This document shows, in pieces, positions 30,250 to 37,952 of a DNA stretch of 64,000 bases. Numbering within the stretch: position 1 is the first letter of the stretch; every line of letters begins with the position of its first letter. A program made the translations under genes and the position numbers. The notes beneath the pieces are model-generated. The model was given only the letters and a program-made list of their open reading frames with translations. It did not search any database and had not been told where the DNA came from. The stretch comes from Rhodothermales bacterium (GTDB taxonomy: Bacteria > Bacteroidota > Rhodothermia > Rhodothermales > Bin80): positions 772,819 to 836,818 of the forward strand of contig OX638318.1 of NCBI GenBank assembly GCA_951812585.1, in the 5' to 3' direction.

Positions 30250-30771
30250 TCAATTTAGGGGGCAATTAGGGATTTGTAGGTCTAAATTGCACCCCTGCGG
30301 TTGTATGCGTCCGGCATCTATTCCGGACTGCCTCATTTGCCGCCGACAAGCGTCTGGGTTCGGTGGTTTGTTGATCCGCACATTCTTTGGCGGCAAGCAA
30401 CGCCCTGTCAGGGATGTGAAGCGGGCCAACTTTTCCGCGTCACGACGGTCCGTCTTGACTCGATCACCGGCACGCCGTGGAATCGACGAGGGCGCAATGA
30501 CCGCACAGGAGATACCGTCGTCACGGAGCGTTCTATAGAGCGTGTAGCCACACGAGGACGCTTCGTAATAACACCGGGGTTCGCCAAAAGAACCACGAAT
30601 ACGGGCCATAACCTTGCGCAGCTTGGCCCTGTTGTCGCTGGGCAGCTCCACTTCAAGACAGACCGCCTTGGAAGCCGGATCGTATGCGCACGCTGCGATC
30701 GTGTCTCTATGTACGTCCAGCCCGACGAAGACCGACTTCTGGGTAGGGATGGCACCAATGGTGGGGTTCAT
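30250..30771 (-). pseudogene. IS110-family transposase, N-terminal fragment
   Basis: The first 115 or so residues match the RuvC-like DEDD domain of IS110 transposases (FVGLDVHRDTIAAC, YYEASSCGYTLYR, VKTDRRDAEKLARF). After about 30425 the similarity fades and the frame stops at 30250. The C-terminal transposase_20 domain with its catalytic Ser is missing, so the element is dead. The likely start is the ATG at 30771. The fragment lies immediately beside the truncated group II intron, with a C14 run between them. Confidence 0.82.
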
Positions 30772-30841
30772 GGGATTGTAAGGTCTATGGAGAAGGATGA
30801 AGTCCAGGCGCCTGCGCCTCGCAGCCAAAATAGCCCTTCGT

Positions 30842-30855
30842 CCCCCCCCCCCCCC
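30842..30855. repeat. Homopolymer tract of 14 C
   Basis: Fourteen consecutive C bases lie between the IS110 fragment and the truncated group II intron reverse transcriptase. The reading frames on either side do not cross it, so it marks a junction between two mobile-element remnants. Confidence 0.95.
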
Positions 30856-30875: not shown

Positions 30876-31604
30876 CTACAGCTTACAGGCGCCCCACCCA
30901 AGCCACGGAGTCAACAGAATGTTACTCAACAAGGGAGAGAGCACCCCGCCTTGCGGGGTACCGTGCGTCGTCGCTACGCGCTTGCCTTCTACTACACACC
31001 CGGCCTTGAGCATCTGCTTGAGCAGGCCCAAGATGCGACCATCCGATACTCGCTGCTGAACTAGTGCCATCCGCTTGTCTTGATCGACCGATCCGAAAAA
31101 GTCTCTCAGATCCGCATCCACCACCCACCGGCTGCCCGCGTTTAGCTCTCTCCACACCTTGCGAAGTGCATCCCATGTGGATCTCCCTTTCCGGTACCCG
31201 AAGCTGGCTGCACCGTATACCGGCTCGAAGATCGGTTCCAACCGGTTCAGTATCGCTTGCTGGACTACCCGATCGTAAATCGTCGGGATGCCCAGGGTGC
31301 GGTACGCCCCCGGCTGGCCCGCCTTGGGAATACGGTGCGCGCGGACCGGCTGGGGCGTGTAAGTGCCGTCTTTGCGCTCCTGATGCATACGCTCCAGGTT
31401 CGCTTCAAGCGATGCCTCGAACATCGCCAGGGTCTCTCCGTCCACACCGCCCGCACCCTGGCCTTGCTTCCCCTTCTTCCAGGCCAACTCCAGGTTCTTC
31501 CGCTTGTACACCTTGTCCACTAACGAGTGGTCCTTCCGCTCTCCTGTTGGATTGAGCCAATGTGACCGTCGCCTGGGTCGATGATGTACGGGCCTTTCAC
31601 GCAT
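30876..31604 (-). pseudogene. ltrA: Group II intron reverse transcriptase/maturase, truncated
   Basis: The product matches the N-terminal half of group II intron-encoded proteins: VDGETLAMFE (RT0), YTPQPVRAHRIPK, RTLGIPTIYDRVVQQA, ADLRDFFGSVDQ and GTPQGGVLSPLLSNI. After LSNILL (about 30945) the sequence diverges and stops at 30876. The catalytic YADD block, the maturase domain X and any endonuclease domain are all missing, so it cannot work. The start is probably the ATG at 31604. It lies in the presumed domain IV of the intron RNA read on the minus strand. Confidence 0.9.
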
Positions 31605-32247
31605 GGAACTGTTCCTCCCCACCGACTTTACTCGCTGCTTACCATTACCCCGCTACAAACCACCTTGGCCGACTGCCTGCCCCGACCCACCCGGCCGCCC
31701 CTTGCGCGGTCACCCGACTTTCGACGGGCTTGTGGTACTATGCAGTCGTCCGACGACTCGCCACGCTTCCGTTCCCACTTCCCCTTACGGGTTATAGGGG
31801 CTGTTATCCCGGTGCCACCCGGGAACGTGACGAGTCCCCTGGGGTCACATCCAGATCTTCCGTACCGTGCCGTTCGCACACACCTTGGTACGACGGGTGG
31901 ATAAGAACGCCTTCGCCGAAATACTGCCGGCAAGACCTTGCCCCGTCTTTGGCCGACCGATTCGTCCGTGGGGTCGCCCCCTTGACTACGGCCCGTACTG
32001 CTCCGCAAGCCCTTCAGATTCCATCTCGCGGTGGACACCCTGCCCTCCGGTTGTCTCGCCGACAATGTCCCGACTTAGCGCCTGTCTTGGCTGTTTCCGT
32101 CGTTTCCTACTCGGTGCCCGTTTAGACCTTTGCGTATCGGTACATCCCGGCCGACGAGGCATTACCCCCGCCTTTGGATATGGCACCCCCTATCCGGGCA
32201 CCAGTGGGATTTGATCCCACCTGATCTGGGCGCTACCCAGCACACAC
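30940..32247 (-). mobile_element. Group II intron, inner copy, 3'-truncated
   Basis: Read on the minus strand, sequence upstream of the reverse transcriptase frame has the look of group II intron domains I-III. It starts near 32236-32247 with GTGTGCTGGGTAGCGCCCAGA, and contains segments such as GATGGAATCTGAAGGGC and GGAAGTGGGAACGGAAGCG before the frame begins. The roughly 620 bases from this start to the frame are normal for such introns. The 3' half, with domains V and VI, is missing. The exact 5' base is uncertain. Confidence 0.6.
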
Positions 32248-32594
32248 TTTGCCCTCTGCTGACTTCTGCGTTGTGATCGCATGTCTTACGACACGTTCAG
32301 TCCGGCTTGGCCGGACACAACGCAGATCTCCCAGGGTAAGACCAACCGCCTTCCCCGCACACCCGCCGAATCTATCACCCCGACGCATAGATGACGCGGA
32401 CTTCGCGATAATCCGCTCGCTCGTCCGATCGGGTAGGCCTCGTATTCGGTTCTTGTTCATCAGGTCGCGGGTTTGCTCCACGCTTCCTTCAGACCCCGCC
32501 TCGCGGCGACGCCCTTGCGCCTCGCTAATCCTTCGCCGTCATCTGGCTGGATAGAGGACTTTCACCTCCAAGCTGTTGGCCATGCCTGGCACAC
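32248..32594 (-). mobile_element. Group II intron 5' segment, outer copy
   Basis: On the minus strand this begins GTGTGCCAGGCATGG, a good match to the group II 5' end consensus GUGYG. It continues with GGAGGTGAAAGTCCTC and GGGTCTGAAGGAAGC, familiar domain I segments, and reaches GTCAGCAGAGG (about 32253-32263). In related introns that last element shortly precedes the reverse transcriptase frame. Instead, a second intron 5' region starts here. The segment itself lies directly after the remains of an IS66 tnpA frame. Confidence 0.6.
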
Positions 32595-32671
32595 GGATAA
32601 AGAGGGGCCTCACGGCCCCTCTCCGCCCAACCACCGTGCGTATGGGGTAGTCTACCTTGCGGAGTAGACCA
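32595..32671 (-). mobile_element. Hairpin region resembling a group II intron 3' end
   Basis: Read on the minus strand, ACGCACGGTGGTTGGGCGG is followed by a strong hairpin (GAGGGGCC, GTGA, GGCCCCTC) and TTTATCC, immediately before the GTGTG of the outer intron. The first part resembles the 3' strand of domain V and the hairpin resembles domain VI. I cannot find the 5' strand of domain V. The alternative is an intrinsic terminator-like hairpin, which is a known type of insertion site for class C introns. Confidence 0.35.
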
Positions 32672-32977
32672 CACTTCCGTTACCACGCGCTCATCCGCAG
32701 CAGGCGCACTAACCTTGAGAAATGCCGCACCTTGCGAGGCAGCGACCTTACGTGGATACTTGCCCTGCCAGTGGTACAACTGACTTGCGGACAGCCTGTG
32801 CGCTGCACAGAAGGCATTCCGGGTCTGGCCACTTTGATGGTATCGCTCAACCTGCGGAAATATCTTCTCCGCCGTACGTCTTGGCTTACGCAGAGGTCGT
32901 TCTTGAGCCCTTATGTGCGGACTACAAGTTCCGACCTGACTATGCTCCCACGCATGATGTAGTTTGATAAACGACAT
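32672..32977 (-). pseudogene. tnpA: IS66-family TnpA-like accessory protein, interrupted
   Basis: About 100 codons encode a TnpA-like helix-turn-helix protein (QVERYHQSGQTRNAFCAAHRL, then SASQLYHWQGKY). The similarity stops near VVTEV (about 32672), where intron-like sequence begins, so the gene was broken by the intron insertion or by a deletion. No IS66 tnpB or tnpC follows. In an intact element TnpA helps the large TnpC transposase. Confidence 0.65.
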
Positions 32978-33274
32978 TGTTTACTACCGTACAGCGATAG
33001 AGTATTTACCGGTTGAACGCTGCCGAACTGGGCGTGCAGCGGGTGCCCTGCCGGCCGTACATTGCCGTATTCCGGGGCCTAATACATTTCCGAAAATGTC
33101 ACGTCTGGAGGAAGGATTAGCCGCCGTCAGCCCCGCGTCATGTCCTCAGCCGCCCTCATCCGCGGGCATGTGTCACTGGCGACCAGCAGCAGCTACACCC
33201 ATGCCCGGCCGGCCCCAGTAGCGCGTCCCCTCCAATAACCGGTACCTTCAATTGTCGCAGACTGGGAAAGACTT
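32978..33274. other. Non-coding stretch between IS remnants
   Basis: No gene recognised. The sequence links the IS66 fragment and the IS1595 fragment and shows no terminal inverted repeats that I can assign to either. Confidence 0.4.
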
Positions 33275-33735
33275 TTGGCATTCATCAGCGGGCCAGCAAA
33301 CAAGACAGTCGTGGCCGCTATGAAGAACCGCGCAACGGGCAAAACCAATGCGAAGGTTGTTGAAAGCACGGACGCGGCTACGTTGCAAGGCTTTGTTTAC
33401 GACAACACGGAGAATGGTGCGGAATTCTACACGGACGAGGCGGCTGCTTACAAGGGCATGGTCGGCGTGGAGCATGAAACCGTCAAGCACTGCGCTTCGG
33501 AATACGTGAACGGCATAGCGCACACCAACGGCATGGAATCCTTCTGGGCGGTGCTAAAGCGCGCCTGCCACGGCACGTACCACCAATTCAGCAGGAACAA
33601 TAGCAGCGCTATGTGGCTCAATTCGCCGACAAGTTCAATCCTTGTCCGGTGAGCGCGGAGGTTCATATACAGCACTTAGTGGCTGGCAAGGTGGGGCGGC
33701 GACAAGTATCAACTGAAGCGTATAAGCCCCAATAA
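33275..33735 (+). pseudogene. IS1595-family (ISXO2-like) transposase remnant with a frameshift
   Basis: The frame from 33275 matches the second half of ISXO2-like transposases: NKTVVAAMKNRATG, KVVESTDAATLQGFV, YTDEAAAYKGM and GIAHTNGMESFWAVLKRA. Near 33600 a shift of frame is needed; the correct continuation reads RYVAQFADKFNPCP and ends at the stop at 33733-33735. The N-terminal part with the zinc-binding region and first catalytic Asp is absent. The element is therefore inactive. Confidence 0.85.
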
Positions 33736-33958: not shown

Positions 33959-36900
33959 TTATCCGAAGAGGGCCCGATCTGGCCGGGCAACATAGTCTTC
34001 GTGCAGGATGCTGTCCAGAGTGGCTGTCAACTGATCCGCATCGGCCTGGTTGAAGGCCAACGGAGGCTTGATCTTGAGCACATTGTGGAAAGGCCCATCG
34101 GTCGAAATCAAGACGCCGCGATCGCGCATCCTGTTGGTCACATACGCCGCCACGTCCGAGGCCGGTGTGCGCAGCTTTCGATCCAAGACCAGCTCTACGC
34201 CCAGAAATAATCCGCGGCCGCGTACATCGCCCATGACCGGGTGCACCCGCTGCAGTGCCTTCAGGCGCGCAAAGAGATACCGGCCCGTGTTCAGAGCTTT
34301 CTCTTGGAGCCCCTCGTCTTCAATGACATCCAGCACAGCCATTCCTATGGCGCACGACACCGGGTTGCCGCCAAAGGTGCTGAAGAACTCCATCCCGTTG
34401 TTGAAGGAGTCGGCAATGGCGCGCGTGGTCACAACGGCCGCTAGGGGATGCCCGTTGCCCATGGGCTTGCCGAGCACGACGATGTCCGGGACAACACCCT
34501 GGGTTTCGAAGCCCCAGAAATGCGTCCCCACGCGCCCAAAGCCTACCTGTACCTCGTCCGCAATGCAAACCCCGCCCCGCTGCCGCACATGATGATATAC
34601 CTGCTGCAAATAGCCCGGTGGAAACTCAATCTGTCCGCCACATCCCAGCAATGATTCGCAGATGAACGCGCACAGTGGCTGGCCGAGTTCGTCCGCAGCA
34701 TCACGGACGCTTTCAGCGTAGCGTACCGCCGCATCCGGTCCCCGGTACGGCCCGCGATACGTATCGGGAGCCAAGGCGACTTTCCCATGCGGAGGAGCTC
34801 CCTGGCCGCCTGGGCCATCAAACTTGTAGGGACTGATGGCAATAAGCGAAGTCAGATGCCCGTGATACGCACCGTCCAGAACAACAATACCAGCCGCATT
34901 GGTATGCGCATGCGCTAGACGCAGCGCCAAATCGTTGGCCTCGCTCCCCGAATTGACAAAGAAGCACACCTCCAGCGGATCGGGCAAGAGCCCCGCCAAG
35001 CGCGCGGCATACCGTACGAGCACCTCATGCAGATAACGCGTATTCGTATTGAGAACACGCTGCTGCCGCTCCGCCGCGCGCACCACCCGCGGATGGCAGT
35101 GTCCAACATGCGGCACGTTGTTGACAGCATCCAGGTAGGATCGGCCCGTAGCGTCGTACAGGCGCTGCCCAAAGCCTCGCACGATGTGCAACGGCGTGCG
35201 GTAGCTGATACTGAGGTTTGCGCCGATGTGCTTGTGACGACGCTTTTGAATCTCGTCCAACGCCCAGCCCCGGGCGGACAAGCATGAAGCAGGAATCCCC
35301 AGCAAAAGGTTGGGGTCCGGGCAGATTCCCAGCCAGACAGCGCGCTGACTCACCGGTGCCACACCGAACCATTCGCCATCCTCGTCCAAAAGGTCGCCCA
35401 ACAGCTGAAAATGGAGATGAGGGACCCAGCCGCCATTCTCTTCTGGCGCGCCCAGCGCAGCGAACTGCTGCCCCAGGCATACTACCGCCCCAAGTTCCAG
35501 CGCATCTACGGATTGGTGGCTCAGATGGCCGTACAAAGTATAGAATACGCCATCTGGTATGTCGTGTCGCAGGATCACGAGGCCACCGAAGTCGAGCGGC
35601 GCGGTACACTTTTGCAACGCATGAACAGTGCCGTCCAACGGCGCAAACACGGGCGAACCCGCTTCCTGAAAAAGATCTATGCCCAGATGAATGGTCCGCC
35701 GCTCTTCAAAATCGTTGTGCGCGTGCAGAAACTGCGCCGCTGTATAGGCGAGGCGCGGCTCGTCATAGCACCCGACGCCTACCGCTGCACCCGCGTTGCG
35801 AATCCGTGTAAACAGCGTCTGGGCCGCTTGACCTATGTCTTGTGCGGGCATCCCCAGCGTGGGACTCGCTACGCTTGCGTCTATCACTAGCGGAACGACC
35901 TTTCGGACATCCGGCAATACTACGGGCGCAAACGTGTCGGCCCGCTGCTTCAGCCATGTGACTGCGCGCGCTGCGGGCGGGCACACGGTCAGTCCGCAGG
36001 CCTCCCTGAACCGGTACCATGCCAGCCGCCGCGACCCTGCGGCCAAACGCTCCAGGAGTGCCCAGGCAGGCTCCTCGCTGATGTTCAGGTATGCGTTGTC
36101 CGGCTCCATGGACGCCCGATGGGCCGACATCAGCACGCTGGTGCACAGCCTGGCGACCACAAGGTCGTACAAGCACGCGACCTCAGATTCATGAAGCGGG
36201 AATACACGATGATACCCGCGAAGCACCGACGCTGCAGCACCCACCGGATCGGCCTTGTCGAGCATCACATATGTCGCAGCAATCGCAACCTCGCACACGA
36301 CAGGCGTGCGCACCATATCCCCAAAGTCGATGAGCCCCGTAACGCGCGCGTCGTACCCTGCGCCACCAACGAGCACATTGTAGTCGTTGGCATCATTGTG
36401 GATGACAGCCTTGCGCAAAAATCGCAATAACGGCAAGACAGTGTCTTCAAAGTAGTCCAGGCAACGGGCCACAAGCGCTTGCCTTGTGCCCTCAGCCAGG
36501 TAGGGCAAATAGCTTCGCAGCGCCGCGGCATGCTGCAAATCCCAAGCGAAACGGCGATCCGCGTGGGGGTGCTCAAATCCTGCCAGATCAGTATCCAGCC
36601 CGCCTAGAAAAGCCCCCAGCCCTTCCAGAAGAGAGGGCAATTGCGGCCGAACGCTGCCTAACGTGCGGCCCTCGATAAAGGTGACCATCCAGACGTGATG
36701 GCGCCGTCCGGTCGCCGCGGCAACCTGCGCTGTGCACGCCCCGGTTCGCGTACGCTGTACCTGGGCGAAGTCGGTGCGACGCTGGGCCAAATGTGCCAGC
36801 GCCTCCTGCTGCATGTCAATCACAGCAGGATCAGCGGCTTCATTGGCACACTTGAGCACAAAGCGACCCTGATTGCCGCGGATCAGGAAGTTCTGATCCG

Positions 36901-37042
36901 CATAACTGGGCAGGCGGTGGGCTGTGCCTTCGATGCCAAAATACTCCCTGGCGATTCGCTCTGCTTCGGCGGCACGAAGCGCCGGGGCCCTGCTCTGCTG
37001 CAGCCCGCCGCAGATAAGGTCAGGATTCGGTGGGCTACGCAT
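33959..37042 (-). CDS. Fusion of APH-type kinase, M23 peptidase-like domain and class III aminotransferase-fold enzyme
   Basis: From the ATG at 37042 (1027 residues; the frame is open 17 codons further) three domains follow. Residues about 28-360 are an APH/hydroxylysine-kinase-like phosphotransferase (HNDANDYN with His215, Asp217 and Asn222; then LIDFGD). Residues about 440-550 are an M23/LytM-like domain with intact zinc ligands (HLGID, HLH; His452, Asp456, His544). Residues about 595-1015 are a class III PLP enzyme ([10 protein letters not shown], Lys859 in VLGKPMG). Related fusions are considered to phosphorylate an amino alcohol or hydroxy amino acid and then cleave it like ethanolamine-phosphate or phosphohydroxylysine phospho-lyases (family knowledge). 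Its start overlaps the stop of the aldolase gene by eight bases. Confidence 0.88.
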
Positions 37043-37952
37043 GGCGCAAGGACCGGGCCACCTGCATAGCCACCGGTGCCAGCGCGCGGGCACCCGCTGC
37101 GCCGAGCGGCATGTGGGGTGGTCTGACCTGACGCCACTTCGGCTCGCGCGAAAGCTGCGCCATGATGCTCTTGAGCCCTGGTATCACCGGATGGGCCTCC
37201 ACAGCCCGGCGGATGCCTGTGATCTCTTCAAGCAGCGCGGACGAACCCGTGCCGTGCCCGTGCCGGTAGAGCCGCTGGGCAAGGCTGCAGGTGATATTGA
37301 TCGTTGCGCTGATGCACCCCGATCCGCCCGCCTCCAGCACCGGCAGCAGAAACTGTTCCGTACCTGCAAAAAAGCGGAGGCCCGGAAATTCGGCCATCAC
37401 CGCCAGCATATGGCGCAAATCGCCGCTTGAATCCTTGAATCCGGCAATGCAGCGTGGATACGCCGCGCGCAGCCGCGCAATGAGCGCATTGCTCAGCGGC
37501 ACCGCACTCATCTGAGGAAAATGGTACAAGTAAATTCTGAGGTCCGCATCGCCCGCAGCCTGAATCTGCTGATCGAAGGCCGCATACAGCCCGTCATTCG
37601 AGGGCTTTTTGTAGTAGAACGGCGGCAAGGTGAGCACATGCTTGATGCCGCAGGCCAAGGCATGGCGCGTTAGCGCGATGGTGTCGGACACGGCCGCACA
37701 TCCCGTGCCGACCATCAGGCGATCCCGCGGTAGCCCAGACGAGAGCAGCCGCTCTATGGCCGCTTGCCGCTCTGAAACGCTGAAGGAGGTGGCCTCGCCG
37801 GTAGTGCCCATCAGCACGACGCCGTCGCATCCGTGTGACAGCAGCCATTGCACATGCTGCGCAAAAGCCTTGTGGCATATGGACTGATCCGCATTAAGCG
37901 GCGTAAGGCTGGCCGCATAAATGCCATCAGGTATCTGATAATCCATAGCCAT
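37035..37952 (-). CDS. DHDPS/N-acetylneuraminate lyase-family class I aldolase
   Basis: A 305-residue TIM-barrel protein. Lys173 in GFKDSSGD is the Schiff-base lysine and Tyr143 in YLYHFP the conserved tyrosine; GTTGEATS at about 49-56 binds the pyruvate carboxylate. It condenses or cleaves a pyruvate-containing compound. It is probably not the biosynthetic DapA, because it is encoded in a catabolic-looking operon between galactokinase and the kinase-phospholyase fusion. A hydroxyproline- or sugar-acid-type aldolase/dehydratase is more likely (inference). Confidence 0.88.
   Translation of the reverse strand: MAMDYQIPDGIYAASLTPLNADQSICHKAFAQHVQWLLSHGCDGVVLMGTTGEATSFSVSERQAAIERLLSSGLPRDRLMVGTGCAAVSDTIALTRHALACGIKHVLTLPPFYYKKPSNDGLYAAFDQQIQAAGDADLRIYLYHFPQMSAVPLSNALIARLRAAYPRCIAGFKDSSGDLRHMLAVMAEFPGLRFFAGTEQFLLPVLEAGGSGCISATINITCSLAQRLYRHGHGTGSSALLEEITGIRRAVEAHPVIPGLKSIMAQLSREPKWRQVRPPHMPLGAAGARALAPVAMQVARSLRHA

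Follow-up and report, generated by a model that had tools for sequence, protein, structure and literature searches.

What is the minus-strand sequence between positions 30876 and 32594 of the window (the whole 64,000-nucleotide stretch of a Rhodothermales contig analysed here), for which the initial annotation proposed one group II intron lying within another, and does the arrangement belong to this locus alone? Sequence comparison argues that it is very probably a decayed twintron, whose inner intron would belong to a reverse transcriptase (RT)-encoding lineage with an EBS1 matched to the entrance of domain IV in many group II introns. Many genomes have nested pairs with the insertion at the same site, and the window copy is a remnant (Table 1).

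Table 1. Features of the window locus and of the complete nested pair on Paraburkholderia hospita pmHSR1_P (L015).
Feature	Sequence	Positions	Strand	Details or evidence
Terminator-like hairpin	Window	32600..32623	-	10-bp GC-rich stem, GUGA loop; fold and shuffle test
Outer group IIC-type intron, 5' part (domains I-III and domain IV entrance)	Window	32246..32594	-	RF02001, RF01998
IBS1, the inner intron's target in the outer intron	Window	32246..32251	-	CAAAGT (most copies CATAGT/CGTAGT)
Inner group II intron remnant	Window	30903..32245	-	GTGTG 5' end to part of RT, without D5/D6; covariance model, P. hospita match, tblastn
EBS1 region of inner intron	Window	31920..31925	-	AGTATT (ACTATG in intact copies)
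Inner intron's own DIII/DIV motif	Window	31737..31742	-	CATAGT
Inner RT/maturase	Window	30903..31604	-	N-terminal ~234 of 434 residues; TIGR04416, tblastn
IS110-family transposase remnant	Window	30250..30828	-	NF033542 6.8e-18, N-terminal third only
Outer 5' part	L015	from 6001		
Inner intron	L015	6349 to ~8373		with RT and D5/D6
Inner RT	L015	6988-8292		434 aa
Inner D5/D6	L015	8291-8373		RF00029, 36.8 bits, E 5e-6; gathering score of 40 just missed
Outer RT	L015	8435-9814		
Outer D5	L015	9819-9891		

The outer intron opens with GTGTGCCAGGCATGG on the minus strand at position 32594. Its domain I (32510-32341) matches RF02001 in Rfam with 129.5 bits (E = 2e-26), and its DIII/DIV entrance (32298-32229) matches RF01998 with 34.5 bits under a laxer threshold, narrowly missing the gathering score of 35; the coordinates initially annotated are correct to within a few bases. 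A segment in G015, from the same family, shares 86% identity with the outer 5' part, and relatives of this intron that lack the insert are present on plasmids. A hairpin ends 5 nt 5' of the intron and is followed by UUUAU; the 46-nt stretch folds at -24.9 kcal/mol (z = -2.9), a value equalled by 1 of 200 shuffles, and was not listed by our pattern scan for terminators, its T-run being short. Group IIC introns insert after terminator-like stem-loops (PMC4424553), which is where the window's outer intron stands, with the hairpin as the 5' exon expected for a IIC intron; an IIC-type RT is seen only in the P. hospita relative described below, the window having no outer RT. The intron's surroundings form a cluster of broken mobile elements, with an IS66 TnpA-like remnant (minus strand) that adjoins the outer intron, and an IS1595 transposase remnant (plus strand), at 32525-33652. 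Further along, at 33959-37093, a 1044-aa open reading frame appears, as judged by sequence, to fuse phosphotransferase-like, peptidase-like and class III aminotransferase-like parts.

A second intron start, GTGTGCTGGG, lies at 32245 on the minus strand, within the RF01998 match of the outer intron. The first 102 nt from this point score 105 bits in the window against our covariance model R1, whose training set includes the window copy; the model also finds further inner copies outside its training set. In the Rfam consensus, GcCAUAGU opens domain IV, with three paired bases first by our own reading of the structure line, so the inner insertion falls just inside domain IV, upstream of the ORF, in agreement with the placement first proposed. 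The inner RT frame starts at the ATG at 31604 and matches the group II RT/maturase model TIGR04416 at 5e-67 over its N-terminal half only. The second intron has RNA segments of its own, with a domain I, besides this frame, and the earlier description of a second 5' region with its own segments and RT frame is confirmed.

That frame breaks off after QGGVLSPLLSNILLTP, before the YADD region, and similarity to intact relatives ends at about 30903 (tblastn). Rfam found no D5 or D6 in the window. The copy is truncated at both levels, the 3' halves of inner and outer intron being gone, and of the twintron structure the 5' junction alone survives. Its EBS1 and IBS1 form only 3 of 6 pairs, so it has decayed at the guide too. 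Because of the missing 3' halves and the unpaired guide it can neither splice nor move: the window copy is dead, and taken by itself it tells little. The IS110 remnant begins some 75 nt beyond the inner intron's truncation point, and its insertion is a possible cause of the truncation; a run of 14 Gs (minus strand, 30842-30855) lies between the two remnants. IS110-family transposases also lie in or adjoin several group II intron loci (L016, L023, L025, L022), as in the window, possibly through a shared target preference. There is no second copy of the window locus in the genome, whose other three group II RT fragments match neither the inner nor the outer RT at 1e-5 and which carries one further D5 elsewhere.

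What an undamaged version looks like is seen in P. hospita. In a search of distant plasmids, pmHSR1_P aligned to the window composite as one 1.6-kb piece with 72% identity, the sole match to the whole stretch, and this match is itself a complete nested pair, with the outer 5' part, a whole inner intron carrying an RT and D5/D6, then the outer RT and the outer D5; no single covariance match spans both segments of the window. The outer intron is here broken by a complete inner intron with precise ends, as a twintron requires. The fold of the inner D5/D6 has a z-score of -6. Both RTs carry RVT_1 and maturase domains, RVT_1 and GIIM being present in the inner RTs of P. hospita and Desulforhopalus, and the inner RT reaches 375.7 bits against TIGR04416 (cut-off 300). 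The nearest solved structure to the outer RT is that of the GsI-IIC RT (PDB 6ar1), at 517 bits, against only 222 bits for the inner RT.

Uninterrupted relatives of the outer intron exist as well, the counterpart that a twintron calls for, and they fix the junctions to the base. In Burkholderia anthina, an intron without the insert (L019) shares 93% identity with the outer 5' part of P. hospita and 82% with the outer sequence beyond the insert; the comparison sets the junctions at CATAGT|GTGCG...CCCAAC|AGGGCG, and the inner ends are therefore GUGYG...AY. Introns on Klebsiella and E. coli plasmids (L022 and L018) carry uninterrupted CATAGTAGG. In L019, L018 and L022 the RF02001 and RF01998 matches are unbroken and an RT of their own is present; continuity is weaker in L020. 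Together with the near-identical inner introns found in outers of another Rfam class (below), the complete pair and the empty outers uphold the twintron-like nesting that had been suggested for the window.

Nineteen inner copies were recovered, and all 19 begin directly after the outer-intron motif AGTC-R-G-n-YRTAGT or a variant of it with one or a few bases different. Their hosts are Pseudomonadota, Desulfobulbaceae and relatives, Bacillota (Alicyclobacillus), a Neomarinimicrobiota MAG, an IMG/VR contig and the window's own phylum. Several were found with the covariance model of the first 102 nt, which was built without flanks (one diverged copy at 47.6 bits). Most have an Rfam-supported outer domain I upstream, and domain I or DIII models match upstream in the Rfam-scanned copies with enough flank, a set that excludes L053 and L054 (contig ends) and L117. 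Inner introns run from GTGCG (in a few copies GTGTG, as in the window, or GTACG) to CCCAAC or CCCGAC; their 3' ends and D6 are similar across copies and their 3' flanks differ. The lineage has the GUGYG/AY ends, the domain IV-encoded RT with maturase X, the D5/D6 and the EBS1-IBS1 pairing of group II introns, and no Rfam D1-D4 model matches its ribozyme above threshold.

No lone inner copy, outside another intron, was found among the copies recovered. Among the matches listed in a plasmid-wide tblastn with the inner RT, the records at 58% identity or more are these same loci, and the next best, an ordinary single intron of Sulfobacillus, has 41.5%. Between 244 and 398 genomes per group were sampled in the genome searches, under strict filters; the inner 5' RNA was absent from all E. 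coli genomes searched. In viral contigs, only L117 among 84 pattern matches is a clear inner intron, and an RT-based viral scan gave none. A weak model match (L055, 28.8 bits) was dropped, having no intron context. All 19 copies were found with probes from this lineage, which a diverged member at another target could escape. Two loci show further rearrangement. In an uncultured Desulfobulbaceae (L013, 4770-6160), the inner RT seems to be interrupted close to its YADD codons by a third group II intron (RF02005, then D5), beyond which the sequence resembles the outer RT, an arrangement that recombination between two insertions, with loss of what lay between, could give; in L053, the start of the inner RT (residues 5-68) directly adjoins the end of the outer RT (residues 297-457), a deletion within the nested pair.

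The constancy of the site has a counterpart in the guide. The inner EBS1 could be read in 15 copies and is ACTATG in 13; as ACUAUG it complements the conserved outer IBS1 (CAUAGU), pairing fully with CATAGT and with one G-U with CGTAGT. Across 12 scripted EBS1-IBS1 comparisons all six pairs form, G-U included, except in the window copy. The copy whose IBS1 is CATATT has the EBS1 AGTATG, again giving six of six pairs with one G-U, and L056 (IBS1 AATAGT) gives five of six by eye. We make no claim of a conserved IBS2 pairing, as outer positions -8 to -13 vary in the flank comparison of inner copies. Where the inner introns' own DIII/DIV motif was seen outside the window, it is AATAGT or AGTAGT, and most outers have C at -6; this correlation hints that A for C at -6 may spare the inner intron from self-insertion.

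Inner RTs form one clade, separate from all outer RTs tested (SH-aLRT 97; some branches are long). On the inner RNA tree, the class of the outer intron (D1D4-3 or D1D4-6) switches five times, at least three of these switches being forced by supported branches, and clusters no more than shuffled labels do. The inner RNAs of P. hospita and Cupriavidus necator are 92% identical, and their outers match different Rfam classes. Since outer classes do not track the inner tree and inners this similar sit in different classes, the inner intron appears to move between unrelated outers, with repeated entry.

An alternative is that the two introns form a fixed composite, an old twintron that is inherited, and mobilised by the outer intron, as one piece. 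The whole layout is indeed common to P. hospita and the window, at 72% identity, as a composite would have it; the class switches, with no more clustering than shuffled labels, the 92%-identical inners in outers of different classes and the occurrence of near-identical outers in an empty state speak against it, and we regard it as improbable. Far less credible still is that two truncated pieces of group II introns came to lie together by chance in a graveyard of transposons: IS66, IS110 and IS1595 remnants do surround the locus and both introns are broken, but the junction is base-precise, coincides with a GUGYG intron start and is shared by 19 copies, and a complete version exists, so that the conserved junction refutes this reading. 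We give equally little credence to a single intron of unusual build, its 5' region duplicated and its RT the only one. In favour of this, the window retains a single RT fragment, and the stretch aligns to P. hospita in one piece; that match, however, holds two RTs of different clades and two D5 matches, and empty outers with an RT of their own exist, and the two-clade RT pair together with the empty outers refutes it.

Under the decayed-twintron reading, an outer group IIC-type intron situated just after a terminator-like hairpin would have been invaded, just within domain IV, by a second group II intron that encodes an RT. The inner intron would retrohome into outer introns using its own RT, and would be spliced out first, or else tolerated since domain IV carries the ORF loop; the restored outer intron would then splice and move. 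We favour, with moderate confidence, a broader account: an RT-encoding bacterial group II lineage that lives only inside other group II introns, whose guide reads the near-invariant domain IV entrance, and which enters unrelated classes and spreads across phyla as an obligate hyperparasite, the A for C at -6 of its own target perhaps averting self-insertion. On present sequence data the family looks like a parasite of parasites.

Bacterial twintrons have so far been regarded as rare accidents; if this family is always found at the same conserved ribozyme position, they would be a regular strategy. The target is a part that the host intron probably cannot easily alter, at a site that tolerates insertions. 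The family would offer a testable system for intron-on-intron parasitism, for the stepwise splicing of two complete retroelements that each have their own maturase, and for the choice between self and non-self targets by a 6-nt guide. For annotation it is a caution that tandem RT pairs can be nested introns.

Several known twintrons resemble this one in part. In Thermosynechococcus elongatus, where TeI3 lies inside TeI4 (Mohr et al. 2010, PMC2882425), group II introns likewise occupy a constant domain IV site of other group II introns through independent inner insertions; those inners, however, are ORF-less close kin of their outers, confined to one genome, placed between the first two ORF ATGs and mobilised by the outer RT (PMC2882425), whereas the inner lineage here encodes an RT from a different clade, invades outers of two classes, lies beside DIII ahead of the ORF and occurs in several phyla. 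The nested introns of Methanosarcina acetivorans (Dai and Zimmerly 2003, as described in PMC4424553) share the repeated site-specific homing of group II into group II introns and the recombination deletions, and the third intron near the YADD codons in L013 resembles their pattern; their homing is into intron ORFs (PMC4424553), while the target here lies upstream of the ORF, in a conserved segment of RNA structure. In Porphyridium plastids (Perrineau et al. 2015, PMC4476101) a single inner intron occupies the same domain IV target site in two different outers, but these are close relatives (78% identical) within a single species, and atpB holds a lone copy of the inner (PMC4476101); here the outers are of different classes and no lone inner is among the copies found. 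The Trichodesmium twintron Tr.e.I7-Tr.e.I8, for which sequential splicing has been demonstrated (Pfreundt and Hess 2015, PMC4649490), also has an RT-bearing inner in a bacterial group II intron, but that inner sits in domain I of its host intron and no homologous twintron is known outside the genus (PMC4649490). To group IIC introns such as GsI-IIC the likeness is that of the P. hospita outer RT (517 bits) and of the hairpin before the window's outer intron; the inner RT (222 bits) is of another clade. Searches of openly licensed papers turned up no account of RT-encoding introns that are specialised, as a lineage, for the DIII/DIV entrance in unrelated classes of intron. Twintrons themselves are known from bacteria and archaea; what is new, provisionally, is a widely scattered lineage with its own RT that is specialised for the domain IV entrance of unrelated group II introns.
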